Shown here piece by piece: positions 13,842-33,892 of a DNA stretch of 35,724 nucleotides. The notes under the pieces are model-generated. The model was not told where the DNA came from. It saw only the letters and a program-made list of their open reading frames with translations, and did not search any database. The position numbers were made by a program, and so were the translations under genes. The stretch comes from Saccharospirillaceae bacterium (GTDB lineage Bacteria > Pseudomonadota > Gammaproteobacteria > Pseudomonadales > Oceanobacteraceae). The stretch is from contig JAJOJJ010000012.1 of NCBI GenBank assembly GCA_021208685.1, forward strand, positions 1 to 35,724, given 5' to 3'. Each line of letters begins with the position of its first letter. The first letter of the stretch is position 1.

Positions 13842-15247
13842 TTAAGCAATGCTGCGCAGTAAATCAGCCACGCCCGCACGCACTTCGGCGACCAGTTCGG
13901 CTTCATCAAGGCCGCAGACCTGACCGTTATCGACCACTACGCGGCCATTAATCAGCGAATACTTTACGCTCACCGGTTCGGCACATAACAGCGGTGCAAT
14001 TACCTCACTGTGTACCCCGGCAAAACGCGGCGAGCCGATATCGTACAGCACCAGATCGGCGGCTTTTCCGACGGCAATATCACCGCAGTGATTCAGCCCT
14101 AATAATTGTGCGCCGTTATGGCTGCCCCAGCGGATAATCTGTTCGGCATGGGTGGCATCGGCACCGTTAACCGCGCGGTGTAAAAGCCAGGCGAGATTCA
14201 GCTCCTGAATCATGGAACCGGATTCGGCTGAGGCGGAGCCATCCACGCCAAGGGTGATGTTCATGCCGGCCTGCTCCATCGCCAGCGCCGGAGCAATACC
14301 GCTGCCAAGACGGCAGTTAGAGGTTGGGCAGTGGGCAATACCGGTACCGCTGGCGGCCAGTTGCTGAATGGTGTATTCGTCGCTTTTGACCAGGTGGGCG
14401 AACCACACATCGTTACCTAACCAATCACAGTGGGCGGCATAATCGATGGCACGCTGGCCGTATTTTTCCTGCGCCTGACTATCGTCAAAACTGACCTCGA
14501 GTAAATGCGAGTGCCGTTTTAATTGCCGCTCCCGTGCCCAGACTGCCAGCGTGCGTAAATCATCGGCTGTGGCGGAATGGACCAGACTGGTGGGCGCGAC
14601 GACTAAGCGGCGCATGGCGTTATCGCCGGCCTGATGATATTGCCGGTAGCTGCGCTCCATGCGCTGCATCACCAATTCAACACTTTCCGGCTGTATGCCA
14701 TGCTTCAGCATGCCTTTATGGCTGCCCTGTACCGTGGCGCTGCCACGGCACAGCACCAAACGGATTCCTAACTCGTCGCCGCGGCCCAAACAGCGTCTTC
14801 CACTTCCGGACTGGAGTTGGCGTGATACAGATAATGGTGATCAGCACAGGTGGTTGCGCCAGAGCGCAGCAATTCATAAAGACCAAGACGCGCGGCGTGA
14901 TACATTAATTTCGGCGATATTTTCGGCCAGAAACGATAAGGCACCGACCCCAGCCAGTCGCCTAATGCCTGATTTAAACCTTCCGGTACGCCTTTTAAAA
15001 CAGACTGCGCCAGATGATGGTGGGTATTCACCAGCCCCGGCCAGACCACGCAGCCAGAGGCATCAATAATCTGTTCGTCATCTGCGGGCAGAAGCTGTGT
15101 GCCGATTTCAGTAATCACACCATCACGGATGCGGATATCCGTTGGCAAGGCCGGGTTTGTGCTGTCTGCGGCTATCTGAGGTTGATTGTGAGGGTGAGAT
15201 CCGGGCTCACAATAAATGGCGCGGGCATGGCGGATCAGGGTATTCAT
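13842..15247 (-). pseudogene. 8-oxoguanine/guanine-deaminase-like amidohydrolase, split by a -1 frameshift
   Basis: Two overlapping minus-strand frames together make one ATZ/TRZ-family amidohydrolase of about 465 residues. The first runs from ATG 15247 (AAAGGAGC upstream; MNTLIRHARAIY) to a stop at 14768 and carries the metal motif GLVNTHHHLAQS and GATTCADHHYLYH. The second starts in another frame near 14785 and carries HSHLLEV, FAHLVKSDE, AHCPTSN and LGVDGSAS. One extra base in GCGGCGACG (14774-14785) would join them as WAAADELGIR, so a single base is missing. There is no slippery heptamer. Known family reaction: deamination of oxidised purines (8-oxoguanine to urate) or related heterocycles. 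The HSHLLEV in place of HLAET makes the exact substrate unsure. Divergent from the binding-protein/dioxygenase operon. It may be a true pseudogene or a sequencing error. Confidence 0.85.
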
Positions 15248-15390
15248 AGCGGCTCCTTTAAACTGCACAGAGCAATGTCCCGGAGGCTGGTGCCATTCCT
15301 GACCGCTTATACTCTTGAAACGTGTCTTTTACACTTTGAATTACAGAGGCTTTTTATTGAACGTTTAAAAAGAGTGTAATGCAATTCTGT

Positions 15391-15410
15391 TTCTGAATAT
15401 TTTTTCAGAA
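15391..15410. promoter_or_regulatory. Inverted repeat, possible enhancer (UAS) for sigma-54 promoter
   Basis: TTCTGAA-N6-TTCAGAA, perfect 7-bp arms, with further TTCTG copies on both sides (about 15385 and 15411). It lies about 150 bp upstream of the sigma-54 promoter, a usual distance for enhancer-binding proteins, and about 150 bp upstream of the divergent deaminase start. It is not a consensus NtrC site, so the regulator is unknown. Confidence 0.45.
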
Positions 15411-15551
15411 TTTCTGATGCGGGCGGATTTTATCTCAGGGTCTGCTGTTTGATGTGCGCAAAAATAAAGCATCTTATTTCCAGCTGCTTTTATTTGGTGC
15501 GGATATACGCCTGAATTTACCGCTGAATGCTGCGAATCATGTCATTATTGG

Positions 15552-15568
15552 TTGGCACAGCGGTTGCT
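15552..15568 (+). promoter_or_regulatory. Sigma-54 (RpoN) promoter
   Basis: TTGGCACAGCGGTTGCT matches the sigma-54 consensus TGGCAC-N5-TTGCW exactly, with correct spacing between the -24 GG and -12 GC. Transcription would start near 15579-15580 and run rightwards, giving a leader of about 308 nt before the binding-protein gene. Sigma-54 control implies an activator and usually nitrogen or alternative-nutrient regulation, which fits purine use as a nitrogen source. Confidence 0.75.
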
Positions 15569-15601
15569 AAAGTTATTTTGTACATGTTTTGAGTAGAAGC
15601 A

Positions 15602-15694
15602 GTCAGGGGCTGACGATCATTTCAGTCCACGGGTCATTGCTCACTGTACGGCGGATAGTTATCTGTGACCGGAAACGGACGCAGGCAAGCCGGT
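15602..15694 (+). promoter_or_regulatory. Structured leader, candidate NMT1-motif (xanthine/urate) riboswitch
   Basis: Downstream of the predicted start site the leader can form hairpin GTCAG/CTGAC (15602-15614). It can then form a bulged hairpin: stem GGTCA/TGACC (15632-15636 with 15666-15670), a 15-base one-sided bulge containing CACTGTACGG, and stem CGGAT/ATCTG with a 4-base loop. An alternative hairpin, CTGTG/CGCAG plus CCG-GAAA-CGG (15663-15684), uses the same 3' strands, so the two folds exclude each other. Known: NMT1-motif RNAs are hairpins with a conserved internal bulge, bind xanthine and urate, and occur upstream of NMT1-type transporter and dioxygenase genes, the arrangement here. 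I cannot check the consensus bases, so class assignment is inference. Confidence 0.45.
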
Positions 15695-15845
15695 GCATTG
15701 AAGACAAGACCCATGACAATGAAAAAAACTGAAGATACTCAGCCAGCCATATTCAGTCCGATACTGTCATTCCACCTTGTTTTTCTTCTTCGCCTTGTTG
15801 CCTGTTCCCCATTGTGGTCATCCGATAACTGCCTGATCGGTTCGG

Positions 15846-15872
15846 CAAACAGCACTGTCTGTTTGTTTTTTT
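15846..15872 (+). terminator. Intrinsic terminator in the leader (attenuator candidate)
   Basis: Perfect 7-bp stem CAAACAG/CTGTTTG with a 6-base loop, followed at once by seven Ts. It ends four bases before the Shine-Dalgarno CAGGAG (15876-15881) of the binding-protein gene. The only gene upstream is divergent, so this terminator has no transcript to end other than the leader itself; this points to transcription attenuation. Confidence 0.75.
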
Positions 15873-15887
15873 ACTCAGGAGTGAACG

Positions 15888-16934
15888 ATGAAAAAACGAT
15901 TAAATAAAAAGGTTAACGGTTCTGCAGCGTCACGTTGTCTGTTACCGGCGCTTGGCTTATTGCTGTCGTTAGGCAGCATGACGGCACTGGCGGCAGACAA
16001 GGTCCGTTTCCAGCTGGACTGGCTGCCGGGCGGTGATAAAGCACCGGTCTATGTTGGTTTACAACAGGGCTTCTTTGCCGAGCAGGGACTGGAGGTAACG
16101 GTTGCTCAGGGGCGAGGTTCTCACGATGCCATTACCAAGCTGGCAACGGGCAACGCGGATATTGGATTGTCGGATCTGGTGGCGTTACTGCAGGCAAAAG
16201 CCGCAGAGAATGTTCCGGTGTCGGCGGTATATTCCGTTTTTTCTGAAGCGCCGCATGCTTTTTTTGTGCGCAGCGATTCCGGTATTAACAGCGTCGCCGA
16301 CGTTGCCGGTAAAAAAATCGCGACGTCGCCATTTACCTCATCCAATGTATTTCTGCCACTGCTGCTGGATGTTAATAAGGTCGATGAAACTTCCATCAAG
16401 TTGCTGAAAGCTGATCCCGGTGCGCTGAATCCGATGCTGCTGACCGGTAACACCGATGTGGTGATTTCCTGGATCACGGATTCTGAAGTGTATAAATCAC
16501 AGGCGAAAGAGGCGGGAAAAACCCTGACGATTATTCCCTGGTATGACGCCGGGCTTGAGTTTTACTCGACGGCAGTGGTTGCTTCAGACCGGTTTTTAAG
16601 TGAACGTCCGGAGGTTGCAAAGCGCTTTATAAAAGCCTACGCCAAAGCGATTGATTATACCTTCAGATTTCCGGCAGAAAGCGCTGCAGCGGTCAAAGCA
16701 GCCGTACCGGAAGTGGATGCAACCGTTGCGGAAGCCACCATCCGTTCGATAAACGGACTGGTGTATAACGATGCCAGCAGCAAAGCGGGTCTTGGCCGGT
16801 TTGATGCAGAACGGCTGATGACGACCTGGAATTGGACAGCAAAAGCGCAGGGTCTGGATGTCAGCAGTTTTGATCCTGAGCAGGCGGTTAAACGCGGTTT
16901 TATCCCGCAAACCAACCTCAGCAGCGCTGAATAA
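15888..16934 (+). CDS. ABC transporter substrate-binding protein, NMT1/THI5-like (SsuA/TauA type)
   Basis: 348 residues. Basic N-terminus, then a hydrophobic segment and signal peptide ending at ALAAD (about 35). The mature protein starts VRFQLDWLPGGDKAPVYVGLQQGFFAEQGLEVTV, the classic NMT1/THI5 opening, and continues with GRGSHDAITKLATGNADIGLSD. Known role: periplasmic capture of small N- or S-containing compounds (pyrimidine precursors, sulfonates, purine-like rings) for an ABC importer. No permease or ATPase gene is adjacent, so it must use a distant transporter. Start fixed by CAGGAG seven bases upstream. First gene behind a sigma-54 promoter, a structured leader and an intrinsic terminator. 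An oxygenase gene follows after 131 bp. Ligand is probably an oxidised purine, inferred from riboswitch-like leader and deaminase neighbour. Confidence 0.85.
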   Translation: MKKRLNKKVNGSAASRCLLPALGLLLSLGSMTALAADKVRFQLDWLPGGDKAPVYVGLQQGFFAEQGLEVTVAQGRGSHDAITKLATGNADIGLSDLVALLQAKAAENVPVSAVYSVFSEAPHAFFVRSDSGINSVADVAGKKIATSPFTSSNVFLPLLLDVNKVDETSIKLLKADPGALNPMLLTGNTDVVISWITDSEVYKSQAKEAGKTLTIIPWYDAGLEFYSTAVVASDRFLSERPEVAKRFIKAYAKAIDYTFRFPAESAAAVKAAVPEVDATVAEATIRSINGLVYNDASSKAGLGRFDAERLMTTWNWTAKAQGLDVSSFDPEQAVKRGFIPQTNLSSAE

Positions 16935-16962
16935 ACTATTTTAATCTGGAGTATAAGCAGCA

Positions 16963-16991
16963 GGACAGCATGCCCATTGGCCATGCTGTCC
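16963..16991 (+). other. Strong intergenic stem-loop between binding protein and dioxygenase genes
   Basis: Perfect 10-bp stem GGACAGCATG/CATGCTGTCC with a 9-base loop that can pair further (CC/GG). No T run follows, so it is more likely an mRNA 3'-end stabiliser than a terminator. Such structures after binding-protein genes often keep that mRNA segment more abundant than the downstream one. Confidence 0.6.
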
Positions 16992-17065
16992 CGGCATTGC
17001 TCCATGGTCTCTGCGCCGACAGCAGACCCTGTGTGTCGCAGTCAACTGACTCTGGAGAATCAGAT

Positions 17066-18124
17066 ATGAATAACGTCATTAATCATACAACCGGCAATAC
17101 CGCTGGGAATACAACGGTTAGCAGCCGTTATGATTTGCAGGAACTGAATTTCGAAAGCACCATCGGCGGTCCCGGACAGGAAAATAATGATCGTACGATT
17201 CCCGTAATTGATTTAACCGGTTTTGATCAGCGCCGGGCTGATATTCGTGAACAGCTGTGGCAGGCAGCAACGGATACCGGATTTTTTCAATTGATTAATC
17301 ACGGCATTGATGTGGCAAAAGTACGTGAGGCTTTTGCGTTATCGGAGCAGTTTTTCGCCTTAAGCGCGGAGGAAAAATCCCGCTTTCCATTAAAAGACGG
17401 CCTGAATGCCGGTTGGGAATTTATGGCGCAGGTGCGTCCGTCAACCGGCACCGCCGATCAGAAGGAATCGTATCAGATTACCTTACCGCATATGGATAAC
17501 CTGTGGCCGAACCAGACGCTGGTGCCTGAGTTTCAGCGGGTGATTCTCGATTTTGAGCAGCGCGCCTGGCAGCTGGGAATGCAGGTTTTATCCTGCTTTG
17601 CCGAAAAGCTGGGTTTTGCTCAGGACTTTTTTACTCAGGCTCACCGCCGTGATTCCGCCGAATATCAAAGCACGCTGCGGTTGCTGCATTATTTACCGCT
17701 GGCTGAAGGTGCAGGCGCAGAGCCGGGATTGTGGCGTGCCGGTGCGCATACCGATTTTGATTGCCTGACGATGGTCTTCCAGAAAACCGGTCAGGGCGGT
17801 CTGCAGGTTTGTCCGGGAAAAGAGGCGATGCACGCTCAGGAGTGGACCAGCGTGATTCCCCAGGATGACATTATCACCTGCAATATCGGCGATATGCTGA
17901 TGCGCTGGAGCGATGACAAGCTGAAATCCACCCTGCACCGGGTGCGTATGCCAAAACCGGATGAAGCCCGTGGCCCGCGTTATAGCATGGCGTTTTTCTG
18001 TCAGGCTAATAAGGATGTGATGATTCAGGGGCCGGAGAAAAAATACGCTGCAATTTCTGCACGCGATTATCTTCTTCAGCGTATTAATGCCAACTTTGCA
18101 GCGCAACCGGGCACAGTGACATAG
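17066..18124 (+). CDS. Fe(II)/2-oxoglutarate-type dioxygenase, isopenicillin N synthase-like
   Basis: 352 residues. N-terminal DIOX_N region with IPVIDLTGF (45-53) and GFFQLINHGI (72-81). The jelly-roll core carries iron ligands His228 and Asp230 (GAHTDFDCLTM) and His291 (LHRVRMP), and the co-substrate motif Arg305-x-Ser307 (RYSMAFF), so the active site is complete. Start at ATG 17066 with TCTGGAGA upstream; the open frame extends 32 codons further but without support. Second gene of the operon with the NMT1-like binding protein. Known: members hydroxylate or oxidise small molecules, and NMT1-motif riboswitches are reported to precede dioxygenase genes. Inference: it oxidises a purine-type ring or side chain supplied by the binding protein. 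It is not of the TauD-like XanA xanthine dioxygenase type. Confidence 0.85.
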   Translation: MNNVINHTTGNTAGNTTVSSRYDLQELNFESTIGGPGQENNDRTIPVIDLTGFDQRRADIREQLWQAATDTGFFQLINHGIDVAKVREAFALSEQFFALSAEEKSRFPLKDGLNAGWEFMAQVRPSTGTADQKESYQITLPHMDNLWPNQTLVPEFQRVILDFEQRAWQLGMQVLSCFAEKLGFAQDFFTQAHRRDSAEYQSTLRLLHYLPLAEGAGAEPGLWRAGAHTDFDCLTMVFQKTGQGGLQVCPGKEAMHAQEWTSVIPQDDIITCNIGDMLMRWSDDKLKSTLHRVRMPKPDEARGPRYSMAFFCQANKDVMIQGPEKKYAAISARDYLLQRINANFAAQPGTVT

Positions 18125-18164
18125 TGAGGACTGACAACAACGATAACTGACAGCAACGATACAG

Positions 18165-18192
18165 CCGCCGGTATATCCACCGGCGGTTTATT
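18165..18192 (+). terminator. Intrinsic terminator after the dioxygenase gene
   Basis: Perfect 8-bp GC-rich stem CCGCCGGT/ACCGGCGG with a 6-base loop, followed by TTTATT. It lies 40 bp after the dioxygenase stop and marks the end of the binding-protein/dioxygenase operon. Confidence 0.75.
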
Positions 18193-18207
18193 GCTGTCAC
18201 CCGCTTA

Positions 18208-18471
18208 GGGCCTGTCGACACTAATTAAATAGGCCTGTTATTGGCTAAAAATATCTCAAACAAGGCGCTGAGAGTGTGGCCTAACGGGTTAAGCGAACGA
18301 ACAGCAACGCAGGATGAGGGATTTTTAGCCATAACCCTTCGGGCTGAGGCCAGTTTTCCCCAATAACATCGTCGCTCGTCATTCATTTAGCCCGCTAATA
18401 TCACTCCTCTCTCCTTGTTCTGAGAAAAACTGGCTCTCAGCAGGATCTATTCAATTAGTGTCGACAGGCCC
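18208..18471. mobile_element. 264-bp MITE-like element with perfect terminal inverted repeats and TA duplication
   Basis: Ends GGGCCTGTCGACACTAATT and its exact reverse complement (19 perfect bp; similarity extends to about 30 bp with few mismatches), flanked on both sides by TA (18206-18207, 18472-18473). Internal inverted repeats GGCTAAAAAT/ATTTTTAGCC (18243-18252, 18321-18330) and GCCAGTTTT/AAAACTGGC (18349-18357, 18426-18434) allow extensive folding. No coding capacity, so it is non-autonomous. The TA target is typical of IS630/Tc1-like transposases; the mobilising transposase is not in the window. Its right end supplies the last base of the neighbouring gene's stop codon. Confidence 0.85.
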
Positions 18472-19481
18472 TAACAGGCCACGCTCTGATTTTTTATGTT
18501 CATCAGAATCGCCAGTGCCTGCAGACGTTTGTCGCGGTCGAAAATATCGTTGGTGAACATTAACTCATTCACCGGTATCTGGCTGACCAGTGCCTGTAAT
18601 TTCGAATGCAGGCTGGCTGGCCCTCCCGTTACAGATAACGCCAGAAACGCATCGACCTGCGCTTTGATCTGCGCATTCCAGATGCCTTCCATACTTTCCA
18701 CAGGGGGTGGTAAATACAGTGGCTGCCCCTGCATTAACGCCATAATCCGCTGCTGACTGCTGGTGGCGAGAAAGCGCGCTTCATCGTCGCTGGCGGCGGC
18801 GATAACAGGTAGGCACAGGATGACATGCGGTTTTTGCCAGGTGGCGGATGGCTGAAAACGATGGCGGTAAAGGGCGATCGCCTCACGCGCCAGGCGCGGA
18901 GCAAAGTGTCCGGCAAAGGCATAAGGCAGGCCGCGCTCGGCAGCCAGCTGAGCACTGAACAGGCTGGAGCCTAACAGCCATATTTCCACCGCACTGTTGG
19001 CACCGGGGTAAGCTTTAACGCGTTTGTGTGCGCCATCCGCTCCCAGCAGGGTCTGTAATTCTTCCACTTCCTGCGGGAAATGTTCGGCGCGCATATCATC
19101 ACGGCGCAGTGCGCGGCTGGTGAGCGGATCGGTACCGGGAGCACGGCCAAGGCCAAGATCAATGCGGCCGGGGTAGAGTGCATCCAGCGTACCGAACTGC
19201 TCGGCAACGATTAACGGCGGATGATTGGGCAGCATAATGCCACCGGAGCCAACGCGGAGTCGTTGTGTGCGTGCTGCGACCTGACCAATCAGTACGGCCG
19301 TGGCGCTGCTGGCAACCCCTTCCATATTGTGATGTTCGGCCAGCCAGAAGCGGTTAAAGCCCAGATCGTCGGCATGCTGTGCATAGTCGAGCATGGACGC
19401 CAGCGTCTGTGCCACCGTAAATCCCTGTGGCACCGAAGCCAGCTCCAGCAGCGAAAAGGGAATATCGGCCAGTGAGGTCAT
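18471..19481 (-). CDS. LLM-class flavin-dependent oxidoreductase (luciferase-like, MsnO8 type)
   Basis: 336 residues from ATG 19481 ([17 protein letters not shown]); the frame extends 15 codons upstream without a better ribosome site. Shows the bacterial-luciferase-like TIM barrel with [21 protein letters not shown] (about 40-60), [13 protein letters not shown] (about 79-91) and [15 protein letters not shown], the pattern of MsnO8-type single-component LLM proteins. Likely an FMN/FMNH2-dependent monooxygenase or reductase of unknown substrate. The TAG stop is built from the TA target site and the first base of the adjacent MITE-like element. Without the element the stop would be TAA at the same codon, so the protein is unchanged but its natural 3' end is lost. 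A terminator separates it from the upstream aldehyde dehydrogenase gene. Confidence 0.87.
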
Positions 19482-32325: not shown

Positions 32326-33677
32326 TCAAACGGTGGTCAATAACTGGCTGGCGGCCTGCCGGTGGTTGGCCATCAGCTGTTGAATATCGCCGCCCAGCCA
32401 TTGTTTATTGCGCACTTTCCAGTCGCCATTAATCATTACAGCATCCGCCTGACTGGCGCCACACAGGACCAGTGCGGCCAGCGCATCATGAGCGCCGCTG
32501 AAACGCGGTTCATCCAGTGTAAACAGCGCAATATCGGCACGCTTGCCAGGTGCCAGTTCGCCAATATCATCCCGGCGCAAGACCTGAGCCGAGCCTTTGG
32601 TGGCAAGGTACAAAGCATCCAGATGGGTAAACTCATCCGCCTGATAACGCAGGCGCTGAATCAACAATGCCTGCCGCACTTCCTGCATTAAGTTGCTGTG
32701 GTCGTTGGAGGCGCTGCCATCCACACCGAGTCCCACCGGCAGCCGGCAGCGCGCAGCTCATTCACCCGGCAAATGCCGGAAGCCAGCACCATATTGGATG
32801 ACGGACAGTGGCAGATACCGGTGCCAGCACTGCCCAGCCGCTGAATTTCTTCATCGTTAAAATGAATGCCGTGCGCCAGCCAGGTGCGGTTAGTCAGCCA
32901 GCCCACGGAATCCAGATAATCCAGTGGCCGCTGGCCAAACATCTTCAGACAGAACGTATTTTCATCGTCGGTTTCCGCCAGATGCGTATGCAGGCTGACG
33001 CTGTATTGTGCGGCCAGCTCAGCACTGGCGCGCATAATGTCGGGAGTCACCGAAAACGGCGAGCAGGGTGCCAGAGCCACTTCGAGCAGACCCTGTTCAT
33101 CGCGCTGGTGCCAGCGTTCAATCAAACGCTGGCTGTCGTCCAGAATCACCTGCTCGGTCTGTACCACCGAACGCGGTGGCAGGCCGCCGTCCTCCACGCT
33201 CAGGCTCATGGAACCCCGGGTCAGGGTGGCGCGCATGCCCAGTTTTAAGCTGATTTCGGCCTGAATATCGATGGCGTTTTCCAGACCGGCCGGAAACAGG
33301 TAATGATGATCGGCTACCGTGGTGCAGCCGGATAATAGCAATTCGACCATGGCCAGTTCCGTTGCCACGGCATGTTGCGCCGGGGTCAGCCCGGCCCAGA
33401 TCGGGTAAAGCGTCTGCAACCAGGGGAATAAGCGCTGATTGAGAGCGGGTGGACAGGCGCGGGTCAGAGTCTGATAAAAATGATGATGGGTATTCACCAG
33501 GCCGGGTAATACAACGTGCGCGCTGGCGTCAAAGGTTTGCGCCACCGGCGCTGTCGGCTGCTGGCCCTGTGCCAGCACCTCAACAATGCGGCCATCGGCA
33601 ATGACTAACCCGCCAGCTGCATTCAGCTCGTTGCCGGTAAAAACGCTGAGGGGATTTTTTATCCAGAGAGTGTTCAT
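32326..33677 (-). pseudogene. 8-oxoguanine deaminase-like amidohydrolase, split by a -1 frameshift
   Basis: Two overlapping frames together give one amidohydrolase of about 450 residues. The first runs from ATG 33677 (GGAGC upstream; MNTLWIKNPL) with GLVNTHHHFYQTLTRACP, GCTTVADHHYLFP, HTHLAETDDENTFC, AHGIHFND and CHCPSSNMVLASG, then leaves frame and stops at 32688. The second frame supplies VGLGVDGSASNDHSNLMQEVRQ with the metal-binding Asp, then the C-terminal beta part. One extra C near 32734-32745 would join them as AAGCPVGLGVDGS, so one base is missing. HLAETDDE and HHHFYQTLTR are typical of 8-oxoguanine deaminase (8-oxoguanine to urate plus ammonia). No slippery site is evident. As it stands the product lacks its last third, including a metal ligand, and would be inactive. 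No adjacent purine gene; a paralogue of 13842-15247. Confidence 0.87.
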
Positions 33678-33892
33678 GGTTGTGCTCCGCAAAATTCGCT
33701 GCGGTACAGGAGGCAGAGAAGAATATCTGTCTACCGGTCGCTAACGAATAAAAATATTCCGCGCAGGCGCGGCGTTCGTCAGCAGTGACCAGGTGTTAAT
33801 CTGCCGGTGCCGATAATATCAGGATGAAACCGGCAGACAAGCGTTCTGATCCTCCGGATACCTCTGACCACTCTGCGGCGTTTTTATAAATA

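Follow-up and report, generated by a model that had tools for sequence, protein, structure and literature searches.

The window, i.e. the whole stretch of 35,724 nucleotides that was analysed, comes from a Saccharospirillaceae bacterium, described as a marine bacterium. The locus extends from 13842, in a deaminase gene, to 18124, at the end of a dioxygenase gene (Table 1). What was first observed in it is largely real, and it is probably a nucleobase-scavenging unit, with a sigma-54 promoter and three xanthine-type aptamers, one of them a variant. The left edge at 15391 used in the preliminary description of this DNA has no special meaning; that description overlooked the divergent aptamer 1 and aptamer 3, before the dioxygenase.

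Table 1. Features of the locus (positions are those of the window).
Feature	Position	Strand	Basis or remark
Aptamer 1, xanthine (NMT1) riboswitch, canonical	15265..15319	-	heads the divergent PRK12393-type deaminase; RF03054
PRK12393/2PAJ-type amidohydrolase (deaminase), frame broken	13842..15247	-	NCBIfam on each half; relatives; PDB comparison
NtrC-like site, weak	15486..15500	+	two mismatches to GCAC-N7-GTGC
Sigma-54 (-24/-12) promoter	15553..15568	+	full consensus match
Aptamer 2, canonical, U at position 37	15586..15647	+	heads the binding-protein gene; Rfam 38.8 bits
Stem ahead of the binding-protein ribosome site	15844..15867	+	terminator-like in the window only
UACUCAGGA, candidate partner of the 5' P1 strand 15587-15595	15872..15880	+	covers the Shine-Dalgarno
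NMT1/THI5-like (SsuA-related) substrate-binding protein	15888..16934	+	PF09084
Aptamer 3, variant (V) xanthine-type	16944..17007	+	immediately 5' of the dioxygenase; below Rfam gathering
Anti-Shine-Dalgarno strand CUCCAUGGUC	17000..17009	+	overlaps the P1 3' strand
GACUCUGGAG, dioxygenase Shine-Dalgarno region	17048..17057	+	predicted partner of 17000-17009
IPNS/T7H-like Fe(II)/2-oxoglutarate dioxygenase	17066..18124	+	PF14226 + PF03171

The riboswitch and the gene types of the locus are already published: Yu & Breaker 2020 (PMC7373994) linked the riboswitch to pcbC (IPNS)-like, NMT1 and PRK12393 genes, including divergent pairs, and the same gene types are found here. The binding protein and the dioxygenase had been recognised at the outset as kinds of genes reported with NMT1 riboswitches, which the Pfam matches (PF09084; DIOX_N and 2OG-FeII_Oxy) confirm, and the proposed NMT1/xanthine riboswitch in the leader is indeed an RF03054 match (aptamer 2) over the gathering score of 36 bits, as is aptamer 1 (46.6 bits). 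The three aptamers of the window share A6, A9, G10, C11, G35, A39, U40 and U41 with the crystallised NMT1 aptamer (PMC8266621); position 7, a G in the crystallised RNA, is a U in the minus-strand and V aptamers.

In the binding-protein leader, the 5' P1 strand UUUUGAGUA can pair with UACUCAGGA, and both strands are invariant in four of four aligned Thalassolituus-type sequences, so that the mutually exclusive pairing initially described for this leader stands as a prediction. The intrinsic terminator that was placed just before the ribosome site is weak: the stem is kept in the four aligned sequences, the T-run is present in the window only, and a simple terminator scan of 15000-18500 returns 10 sites, most of them inside genes (3.8 in shuffles, sd 2.1). 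Transcription attenuation, and with it the attenuator control of the preliminary description, is rejected, since the U-tract is conserved in only one of the four aligned leaders.

Sigma-54 control, on the contrary, is borne out. The element TGGCACAGCGGTTGCT matches the consensus TGGCAC-N5-TTGCW (GG-N10-GC core) at 11 of 11 positions, and transcription would start near 15579. In the relatives set, which comprises nine riboswitch-bearing genomes including the host's own, TGGYAY-N5-TTGCW precedes a plus-strand aptamer in eight; it was not found there in genome G021. A broader sample consists of the best 80 of at least 512 confirmed relatives, making 81 sources with the window; all 80 loci are at least 58% identical, so that their contexts are those of close kin and are not independent. 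There, sites scoring at least 9/11 lie 15-100 nt upstream of 64 of the 75 first-position plus-strand aptamers (1.68 in shuffles), and 38 of the 75 score at least 10 (0.25 in shuffles). Divergent aptamers score at least 8 in 47 of 53 cases, against 3.83 in shuffles, and sites before internal aptamers are at background (3 of 43 versus 2.42); scores of at least 9 occur in 56 of 804 upstream regions of other ORFs. These shuffles preserved dinucleotides; those of an earlier run preserved base composition only. On the deaminase side of the window, the scan found no sigma-54 site.

The NtrC consensus is GCAC-N7-GTGC. With one mismatch allowed, this motif is found in 49 of 75 related intergenic regions (12.0 in shuffles, maximum 20), and the window's own site is weak. 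A second form, TGCAC-N6-GTGCA with two mismatches, is not enriched in these regions (15 of 75 versus 13.9 shuffled).

At least one aptamer is present in 75 of the 80 dioxygenase loci. The model search found none in L112, L121, L124, L127 and L129, nor did a loose Rfam scan of the first four, and the aptamers of L059 all lie more than 260 nt from its dioxygenase gene. The model used for the aptamer search (R1) derives from 21 sequences, two of which are V-type (L019 and L020), so that V scores are somewhat favoured; it gave 175 matches, of which 174 were counted after L130 (E 0.23) was dropped. Aptamer classes were set by pattern, which left 9 of the 174 without a class (7 matched no pattern and 2 were "other"). 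The riboswitch occurs in seven of nine genomes of the genus. In a class-wide sample of 369 genomes, a scan at E up to 0.001 whose stricter filters lose weak matches gave 4 genomes with the riboswitch, the host's among them, 2 of the 4 being over the cut-off.

Aptamer 3 scores 31.6 bits with the Rfam model (E 1.6e-5 in a 201-base search) and 29.7 bits with R1; being under 36 bits, it is treated here as a variant rather than an ordinary member of RF03054. The V class is defined by the deletion of the U14-A37 pair, which leaves P2a with two pairs instead of the three of the crystallised aptamer (PMC8266621). This class accounts for 24 of 81 dioxygenase-proximal aptamers and for none of the 93 others (window plus best 80 of at least 512 relatives), and all 24 copies, including that of the window, follow an upstream plus-strand aptamer. 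Aptamer 3, like all 24 V copies, keeps the nucleotides in contact with xanthine or stacked on it, as the V pattern itself requires, and position 7 is a U in seven of the 24. In the eight loci that were checked, seven of eight V copies fall below the Rfam threshold, against 3 of 14 other aptamers. These low scores, like that of aptamer 3 itself, are what a decayed, non-functional copy would give, but we find this explanation very improbable, since the same two-sided deletion is found in 24 copies across many genera, and both P2b and the anti-Shine-Dalgarno strand covary in V copies: with true V partners, pairs 3-5 of P2b form in 79, 67 and 75% of cases, and with swapped partners in 49, 35 and 42%. 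It follows from these scores that maps of the regulon which rely on the threshold are likely incomplete.

Covariation links the P1 3' strand of dioxygenase leaders to their Shine-Dalgarno region. The comparison used leaders that have a GGAG and a start codon no more than 110 nt away, each distinct leader counted once. Their anti-Shine-Dalgarno duplex has an energy of -9.65 kcal/mol with the cognate partner and -8.19 with swapped partners (n=38, p 1e-4), or -10.49 and -8.59 kcal/mol when only V leaders are considered (n=19, p 1e-4). The cognate excess is not significant in deaminase leaders (p 0.056) and in binding-protein leaders (p 0.14, n=7). It is important to note that the GCUCC-GGAG complementarity is partly built into the aptamer, which counts against the anti-Shine-Dalgarno argument. 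When P1 is imposed in folding, the Shine-Dalgarno becomes more accessible in 17 of the 24 V leaders and less accessible in none; accessibility goes up in 25 and down in 3 of 43 deaminase leaders, up in 7 and down in 3 of 31 binding-protein leaders, and the remaining 55 dioxygenase leaders give a mixed picture (up in 24, down in 6). This folding takes no account of aptamer tertiary contacts, the start codons come from a heuristic choice, and 11 of the 174 aptamers could not be evaluated.

The dioxygenase leaders are thus predicted, from these models, to be ligand-ON. As a general rule, it is the substrate that induces importers and catabolic enzymes controlled by nitrogen, and this rule, together with the direction predicted from the leader layout of dioxygenase loci, argues against the published reading, in which the aptamers are OFF switches for product feedback and the xanthine or urate formed by the dioxygenase and the deaminase stops translation. 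We regard this OFF reading as a serious possibility, although on balance a doubtful one. The H. intermedia aptamer, the sole member of the family reported as tested in the part of PMC7373994 used here, behaved as an OFF switch in a reporter experiment that compared the wild type with one mutant: the binding-dead mutant was expressed above the wild type, and the text consulted gives no titration with ligand. The affinities given in that same text, with a Kd of about 3.7 uM for xanthine and about 25 uM for urate, also agree with feedback by these products.

The binding protein scores 143.8 bits against PF09084, its kin in the PDB are 4nmy, THI5 and 3ix1, and it has an apparent signal peptide, as judged by eye. 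It was previously called an orphan, a label that is not supported: another contig of the same genome (C2) encodes a full transporter of its family (NMT1-type binding protein, ATPase and permease), with which it may work.

The dioxygenase, whose reading frame begins with an ATG, has the complete H-D-H/R-x-S site that had been noticed at first: in an alignment of 75 sequences, H228-D230...H291 and R305-x-S307 are both present in every one. Nor is it of the XanA/TauD type, as had been stated, since a Pfam search (E up to 0.001) gave DIOX_N and 2OG-FeII_Oxy only and no TauD domain. The nearest solved structure, by sequence and by fold, is the thymine dioxygenase T7H, or thymine-7-hydroxylase (PDB 5c3p-s, 28-31% identity). 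The metal, 2-oxoglutarate and aromatic pocket residues of T7H are kept in the window family, and its polar base contacts N87, E122 and N294 are replaced by K, Q and Q. The equivalents of R190 and F292 are present in 75 of 75 aligned dioxygenases and also in four paralogues of 32-34% identity, so that they do not prove a nucleobase substrate. Judging from sequence, the enzyme most likely oxidises a nucleobase. The functions of the riboswitch-linked dioxygenases are described as not established in the part of Yu & Breaker consulted (PMC7373994), where no gene for the breakdown of oxidised purines is linked to the riboswitch.

The link to purine genes that had been suggested is supported by the aptamers of 75 of the 80 loci, recognisable purine genes being found in the fetched flanks of a minority: XdhB in 15 of the 81 sources, PuuD in 16, a TadA-like protein in 18 and NCS2 in 6 (family names checked by Pfam). 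That the riboswitch senses xanthine, that the family is 2-oxoglutarate-dependent and that such an aptamer precedes a Rieske oxygenase gene in genome G161 would all fit a xanthine (or hypoxanthine) hydroxylase independent of xanthine dehydrogenase, a bacterial stand-in for XanA or HpxDE. This is quite unlikely, however, since XdhB is above the family cut-off in nine of the nine riboswitch-bearing genomes of the relatives set and occurs in the fetched flanks of 15 of the 80 dioxygenase loci (best 80 of at least 512). On contig C39 of the host itself, xdhABC, puuD and allantoicase are grouped with a guanine-deaminase-like gene; the genome keeps xanthine dehydrogenase, hence the dioxygenase does not replace it, and substitution for this enzyme is rejected as the main reading.

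The deaminase frame, continuous in the eight other riboswitch genomes, is broken in the window into two ORFs (14768-15268 and 13842-14789), and its start at 15247 was judged by eye. Searched apart, the two halves score 179.6 and 426.8 bits in NCBIfam. PRK12393, whose cut-off is 543 bits, matches an intact relative (L008) at 624.8 bits, a Ralstonia protein (L122) at 757.5 and the 2PAJ fragment at 748.8; the cut-off of PRK08203 (8-oxoguanine deaminase, 532 bits) is missed by L008 (398.9). All 43 riboswitch-linked deaminases are closer to 2PAJ, which we take to be an isoxanthopterin deaminase, than to 7WW2, with a mean identity to 2PAJ of about 42%. The two pocket threonines of 2PAJ, presumably the hallmark of isoxanthopterin deaminases, are kept in 42 and 43 of the 43. 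The 38 other amidohydrolases of these loci comprise 22 guanine-deaminase-like and 5 8-oxoguanine-type enzymes, with neither threonine, and 11 that are closer to 2PAJ. In FastTree trees, which for amidohydrolases as for dioxygenases came with long-branch warnings, 2PAJ and all 43 fall in one clade (local support 99). These sequence comparisons group the riboswitch-linked deaminases with 2PAJ rather than with guanine or 8-oxoguanine deaminases. The Ralstonia deaminase, 70% identical to 2PAJ, ends an aptamer-led operon (binding protein, ATPase, permease, deaminase), and the same operon is probably present in Cupriavidus (L113, 69% identical to 2PAJ), where some intervening genes were not called. 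The NdmH enzymes, N2,N2-dimethylguanine hydrolases, are related amidohydrolases that form xanthine from a guanine analogue (PMC13054789); by eye, and using the reported residue numbers, the window enzyme appears to have APTSLVH in place of the C-Q-x-x-N motif of NdmH, and an NdmH identity is not supported.

It may be, then, that the regulon deals with pterins and lumazines. The substrate would be isoxanthopterin or pterin-6-carboxylate for the deaminase and a pterin or lumazine for the dioxygenase, and the ligand of the aptamers would be a lumazine whose recognised edge is like that of xanthine. We find this rather unlikely: the mean identity to 2PAJ is low, and the recognised neighbours are purine genes, albeit from a search that covered purine families. 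The proximity of all 43 deaminases to 2PAJ with its threonines, the fact that 2PAJ is itself a PRK12393 member (749 bits) and the place of its close relative at the end of the aptamer-led transporter operon speak for it. The crystallised aptamer recognises xanthine by its 2-oxo urea edge, by O6 and by N7, and leaves C8 open (PMC8266621), which is also favourable, but lumazine and pterin are absent from the main text, as consulted, of PMC7373994 and PMC8266621.

We lean, with moderate confidence, towards a nitrogen-scavenging regulon for purine-like nucleobases with ligand-ON aptamers acting cistron by cistron. Counting against it are the OFF behaviour of the H. intermedia aptamer, the U at position 7 of two of the window's aptamers, the weak NtrC-like site, the lack of a sigma-54 site on the deaminase side and the broken deaminase frame. 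Its basis, as read from the sequences, is the promoter, the aptamers, the covarying anti-Shine-Dalgarno helix and the gene families; the involvement of NtrC, the ligand, the ON direction and the enzyme substrates are what we infer. Under nitrogen limitation, sigma-54 RNA polymerase, probably activated by NtrC, would transcribe the binding-protein and dioxygenase genes; a separate xanthine-type aptamer precedes each cistron, as it does the divergent deaminase. The presence of a third, internal aptamer would be explained if control acts on translation, one ribosome site at a time, since every cistron then requires a switch of its own. Before the dioxygenase, the P1 3' strand would pair with the 5' strand when the ligand is bound and with the Shine-Dalgarno when it is free, and folding suggests the same alternative in most deaminase leaders. 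Ligand binding would thus free the ribosome site and turn translation on, expression would require both a shortage of nitrogen and the presence of the nucleobase, and the PRK12393-type deaminase would remove a 2-amino group.

New here are the two further aptamers, the V class, the sigma-54 coupling, the anti-Shine-Dalgarno covariation, the grouping of the deaminases with 2PAJ and the retention of xanthine dehydrogenase by the genome; the parts of PMC7373994 and PMC8266621 consulted describe neither the sigma-54 sites before first-position aptamers, nor the internal V aptamer, nor the ON layout predicted here. A more speculative and, in our judgement, unlikely proposal is that the regulon is at heart a sigma-54-driven, ligand-activated pterin/lumazine pathway, in which isoxanthopterin-type pterins would be deaminated to lumazines, the T7H-like enzyme would oxidise either the ring itself or a side group, and both kinds of aptamer, canonical and V, would sense lumazine or violapterin, whose 2,4-dione edge is the same as that of xanthine and urate. 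If this were true, the V aptamer may read a second ligand, so that tandem leaders would compute on two metabolites. The gaps left by Yu & Breaker become directly testable through the sigma-54 coupling, the per-cistron aptamers, the ON logic that we predict and the identity of the linked deaminase.

The window is one entire contig of the genome of this Saccharospirillaceae bacterium (GCA_021208685.1, 4.0 Mb in 46 contigs); Thalassolituus alkanivorans, with a dioxygenase of 91% identity, is the closest named relative that we identified. Above the Rfam threshold, the window contains two xanthine (NMT1) riboswitches arranged back to back, and the search of the whole genome reported no further one. 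The PRK12393-type deaminase led by aptamer 1 is split into two ORFs in the window; in all eight other riboswitch genomes compared, its frame is continuous. Aptamer 2, which starts 33 nt past the start of a full-match sigma-54 site, precedes the gene of an NMT1-type binding protein and then that of a dioxygenase, as the preliminary description had claimed; PMC7373994 already describes these gene types. In relatives G001, G005 and G007, plus-strand aptamers lead directly into the dioxygenase. A second deaminase of the window, of the 8-oxoguanine type (PRK08203), is likewise split over two frames, and Rfam shows no aptamer before it. Directly 3' of the dioxygenase lies a MITE-like repeat of about 270 bp with 28-bp terminal inverted repeats; the genome holds six near-full-length copies including this one (92–100% identity) and many partial copies.

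Features of the window discussed in the text
Feature	Position	Strand	Remark
Xanthine (NMT1) riboswitch, aptamer 1	15265-15319	minus	Rfam, above threshold
NtrC-like site	15486		two mismatches; sole version of the motif in the window
Xanthine (NMT1) riboswitch, aptamer 2	15586-15647	plus	Rfam, above threshold
Aptamer 3	16940-17011	plus	R1 match, between binding-protein and dioxygenase genes
CUCCAUGGUC	17000-17009		takes in part of the P1 3' strand
GACUCUGGAG	17048-17057		ribosome site
MITE-like repeat	18205-18474
Second deaminase (PRK08203)	32326-33692	minus	split

We scanned the 15–100 nt upstream of each aptamer for sigma-54 sites (score out of 11, dinucleotide shuffles as control). Among first-position plus-strand aptamers, 64 of 75 score at least 9 (1.68 in shuffles), 38 at least 10 (0.25) and 14 are perfect (0.03), which, with the full-match site before aptamer 2, bears out the sigma-54 promoter proposed earlier. 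Divergent aptamers reach at least 8 in 47 of 53 cases (3.83), at least 9 in 26 (0.85) and at least 10 in 7 (0.15); no site was found on the minus (deaminase) side of the window. Internal aptamers stay close to background (3/43 at 8 or more, 2.42 in shuffles), two of these three sites (L109 and L111) being perfect. Upstream of other ORFs, 56 of 804 regions score at least 9, and 10 at least 10. Allowing one mismatch, 49 of 75 intergenic regions contain the NtrC-like motif GCAC-N7-GTGC (consensus from E. coli glnA), compared with 12.0 in shuffles; a second form of it shows no enrichment (15 vs 13.9). Judging from these counts and from the window's weak NtrC match, both the family and the window have good support for predicted sigma-54 control, and NtrC control is supported at the family level only.

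A covariance model (R1) built from 21 relatives' aptamers returned 175 matches over 80 named loci and the window; 174 entered the counts. Aptamer 3 scores 31.6 bits in Rfam, under the cut-off of 36, and its alignment has a single-base gap on either strand. It lacks both U14 and A37 in the crystal-structure numbering of PMC8266621, so that P2a is one pair shorter; the bases contacting or stacked around xanthine in that structure are kept, with U instead of G at position 7. This variant (V) form accounts for 24 of 81 dioxygenase-proximal aptamers and for none of the 93 others (window included), and an upstream plus-strand aptamer accompanies it in 24/24 cases; in 33 of the 51 non-V loci the dioxygenase-proximal aptamer is the sole plus-strand one, and in 18 it has company. 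The trait changes 6 times along the dioxygenase tree, so the 24 copies do not stand for as many events. Covariation supports a predicted P2b helix in V: true partners make pairs 3–5 in 79, 67 and 75% of cases and swapped ones in 49, 35 and 42%, the gap being smaller for pairs 1–2 (79 and 83% vs 69 and 69%). In 8 loci checked at the Rfam threshold, 1 of 8 V copies passes, as do 11 of the 14 other aptamers detected by R1 in the same loci.

Tandem aptamers occur within one dioxygenase leader at L057, L058 and L060, where the second is of the V type, and also at L064, L097 and L123; such a leader possibly has two inputs. By eye, positions 12 and 37 covary in canonical aptamers (L055–L134): deaminase leaders combine G12 with A37, and most dioxygenase leaders on the plus strand combine A/U12 with U37. 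Positions 13 and 38 also covary (G-C vs U-A), and the canonical aptamers may therefore fall into subclasses.

In the dioxygenase leader, CUCCAUGGUC can pair with GACUCUGGAG; both are kept across four sequences and the intervening stretch differs. Across loci, this anti-SD pairing is stronger between true than swapped partners for the dioxygenase leaders taken together (-9.65 vs -8.19 kcal/mol, n=38, p 1e-4) and in V leaders (-10.49 vs -8.59 kcal/mol, n=19, p 1e-4); the same comparison gives p 0.028 for non-V dioxygenase leaders (n=19), 0.056 for deaminase leaders (n=28) and 0.14 for binding-protein leaders (n=7). Imposing P1 (163 of the 174 aptamers evaluable) raises the accessibility of the ribosome site in 17 of 24 V leaders and lowers it in none; rises and falls number 25 and 3 of 43 for deaminase leaders, 24 and 6 of 55 for other dioxygenase leaders, 7 and 3 of 31 for binding-protein leaders and 3 and 1 of 10 for others. 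For aptamers close to their gene, this geometry tentatively predicts a ligand-ON switch, unlike the OFF result published for the H. intermedia leader (PMC7373994), which comes from comparing the wild type with one binding mutant.

The dioxygenase is nearest thymine-7-hydroxylase (T7H) by sequence (E 7.8e-28), and the first eleven Foldseek rows for its structure model (pLDDT 83.9, pTM 0.85) are T7H chains. The metal and 2OG ligands and the equivalents of T7H Arg190 and Phe292 are kept in 75/75 dioxygenase sequences, whereas Asn87, Glu122 and Asn294 of T7H are replaced; 68 of 75 have Phe at the Tyr217 position, a substitution that T7H largely tolerates (PMC4787775). A nucleobase is the likely substrate, but Arg205 and Phe311 (the Arg190 and Phe292 equivalents) recur in four paralogues with 32–34% identity. 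Two Streptomyces orthologues (L112 and L127, 61–63% identity) have no aptamer match; in the former the gene comes after an ABC ATPase and another dioxygenase frame, and in the latter a xanthine/uracil-type permease lies downstream. At L021/L024 (genome G161), divergent aptamers head a Rieske oxygenase on one side and, judged by eye, an NMT1-like binding protein on the other; here another oxygenase occupies the dioxygenase's place.

The best PDB match of an intact relative's deaminase is 2PAJ (343 bits), ahead of the 8-oxoguanine deaminase 7WW2 (277 bits). A FastTree tree of 84 amidohydrolases shows three separate groups: a PRK12393/2PAJ clade (55 rows, local support 99) that holds all 43 aptamer-linked deaminases, and guanine-deaminase-like (22 rows) and 8-oxoguanine (7 rows counting two references) groups with none. 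Of two 2PAJ threonines, one is conserved in 42 and the other in all 43 of these enzymes. 2PAJ corresponds to Sgx9339a, which Hall et al. 2010 reportedly described as an isoxanthopterin deaminase that also accepts pterin-6-carboxylate. With this placement, a pterin/lumazine pathway has to be taken seriously as a rival to the purine reading, although the recognised neighbours are purine genes, in a search for purine genes over 81 sources (the window and the best 80 of at least 512 relatives, these 80 being at least 58% identical): XdhB in 15, PuuD in 16, a TadA-like deaminase in 18, UraH in 10 and UraD in 10, within flanks of at most 8 kb often ended by contig ends.

As for purine catabolism, XdhB is above cut-off in 9/9 riboswitch-bearing genomes (55 genomes searched). 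In the bacterium's own genome, contig C39 carries a guanine-deaminase-like gene, xdhABC, puuD and an allantoicase gene, and contig C2 a cluster of LysR-like, dioxygenase-paralogue, hydrolase-like, SBP, ATPase, permease and TadA-like deaminase genes (most Pfam-checked in both); the C2 cluster has no aptamer match. The window's binding protein could work through the C2 transporter.

Yu & Breaker (PMC7373994) had already described the riboswitch and its ligands, its association with pcbC-like, NMT1 and PRK12393 genes, a divergent pair and the near absence of terminators. Among the open-licence papers listed on xanthine riboswitches and sigma-54, on riboswitches and RpoN, and on riboswitches with lumazine and pterin, none addresses the points given next as new, and IPNS in purine catabolism gave no match. 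What appears new for this riboswitch family is its predicted coupling to sigma-54, the putative V aptamer ahead of the dioxygenase, an anti-SD strand that covaries and would imply an ON switch, and the probable grouping of the aptamer-linked deaminase with 2PAJ.
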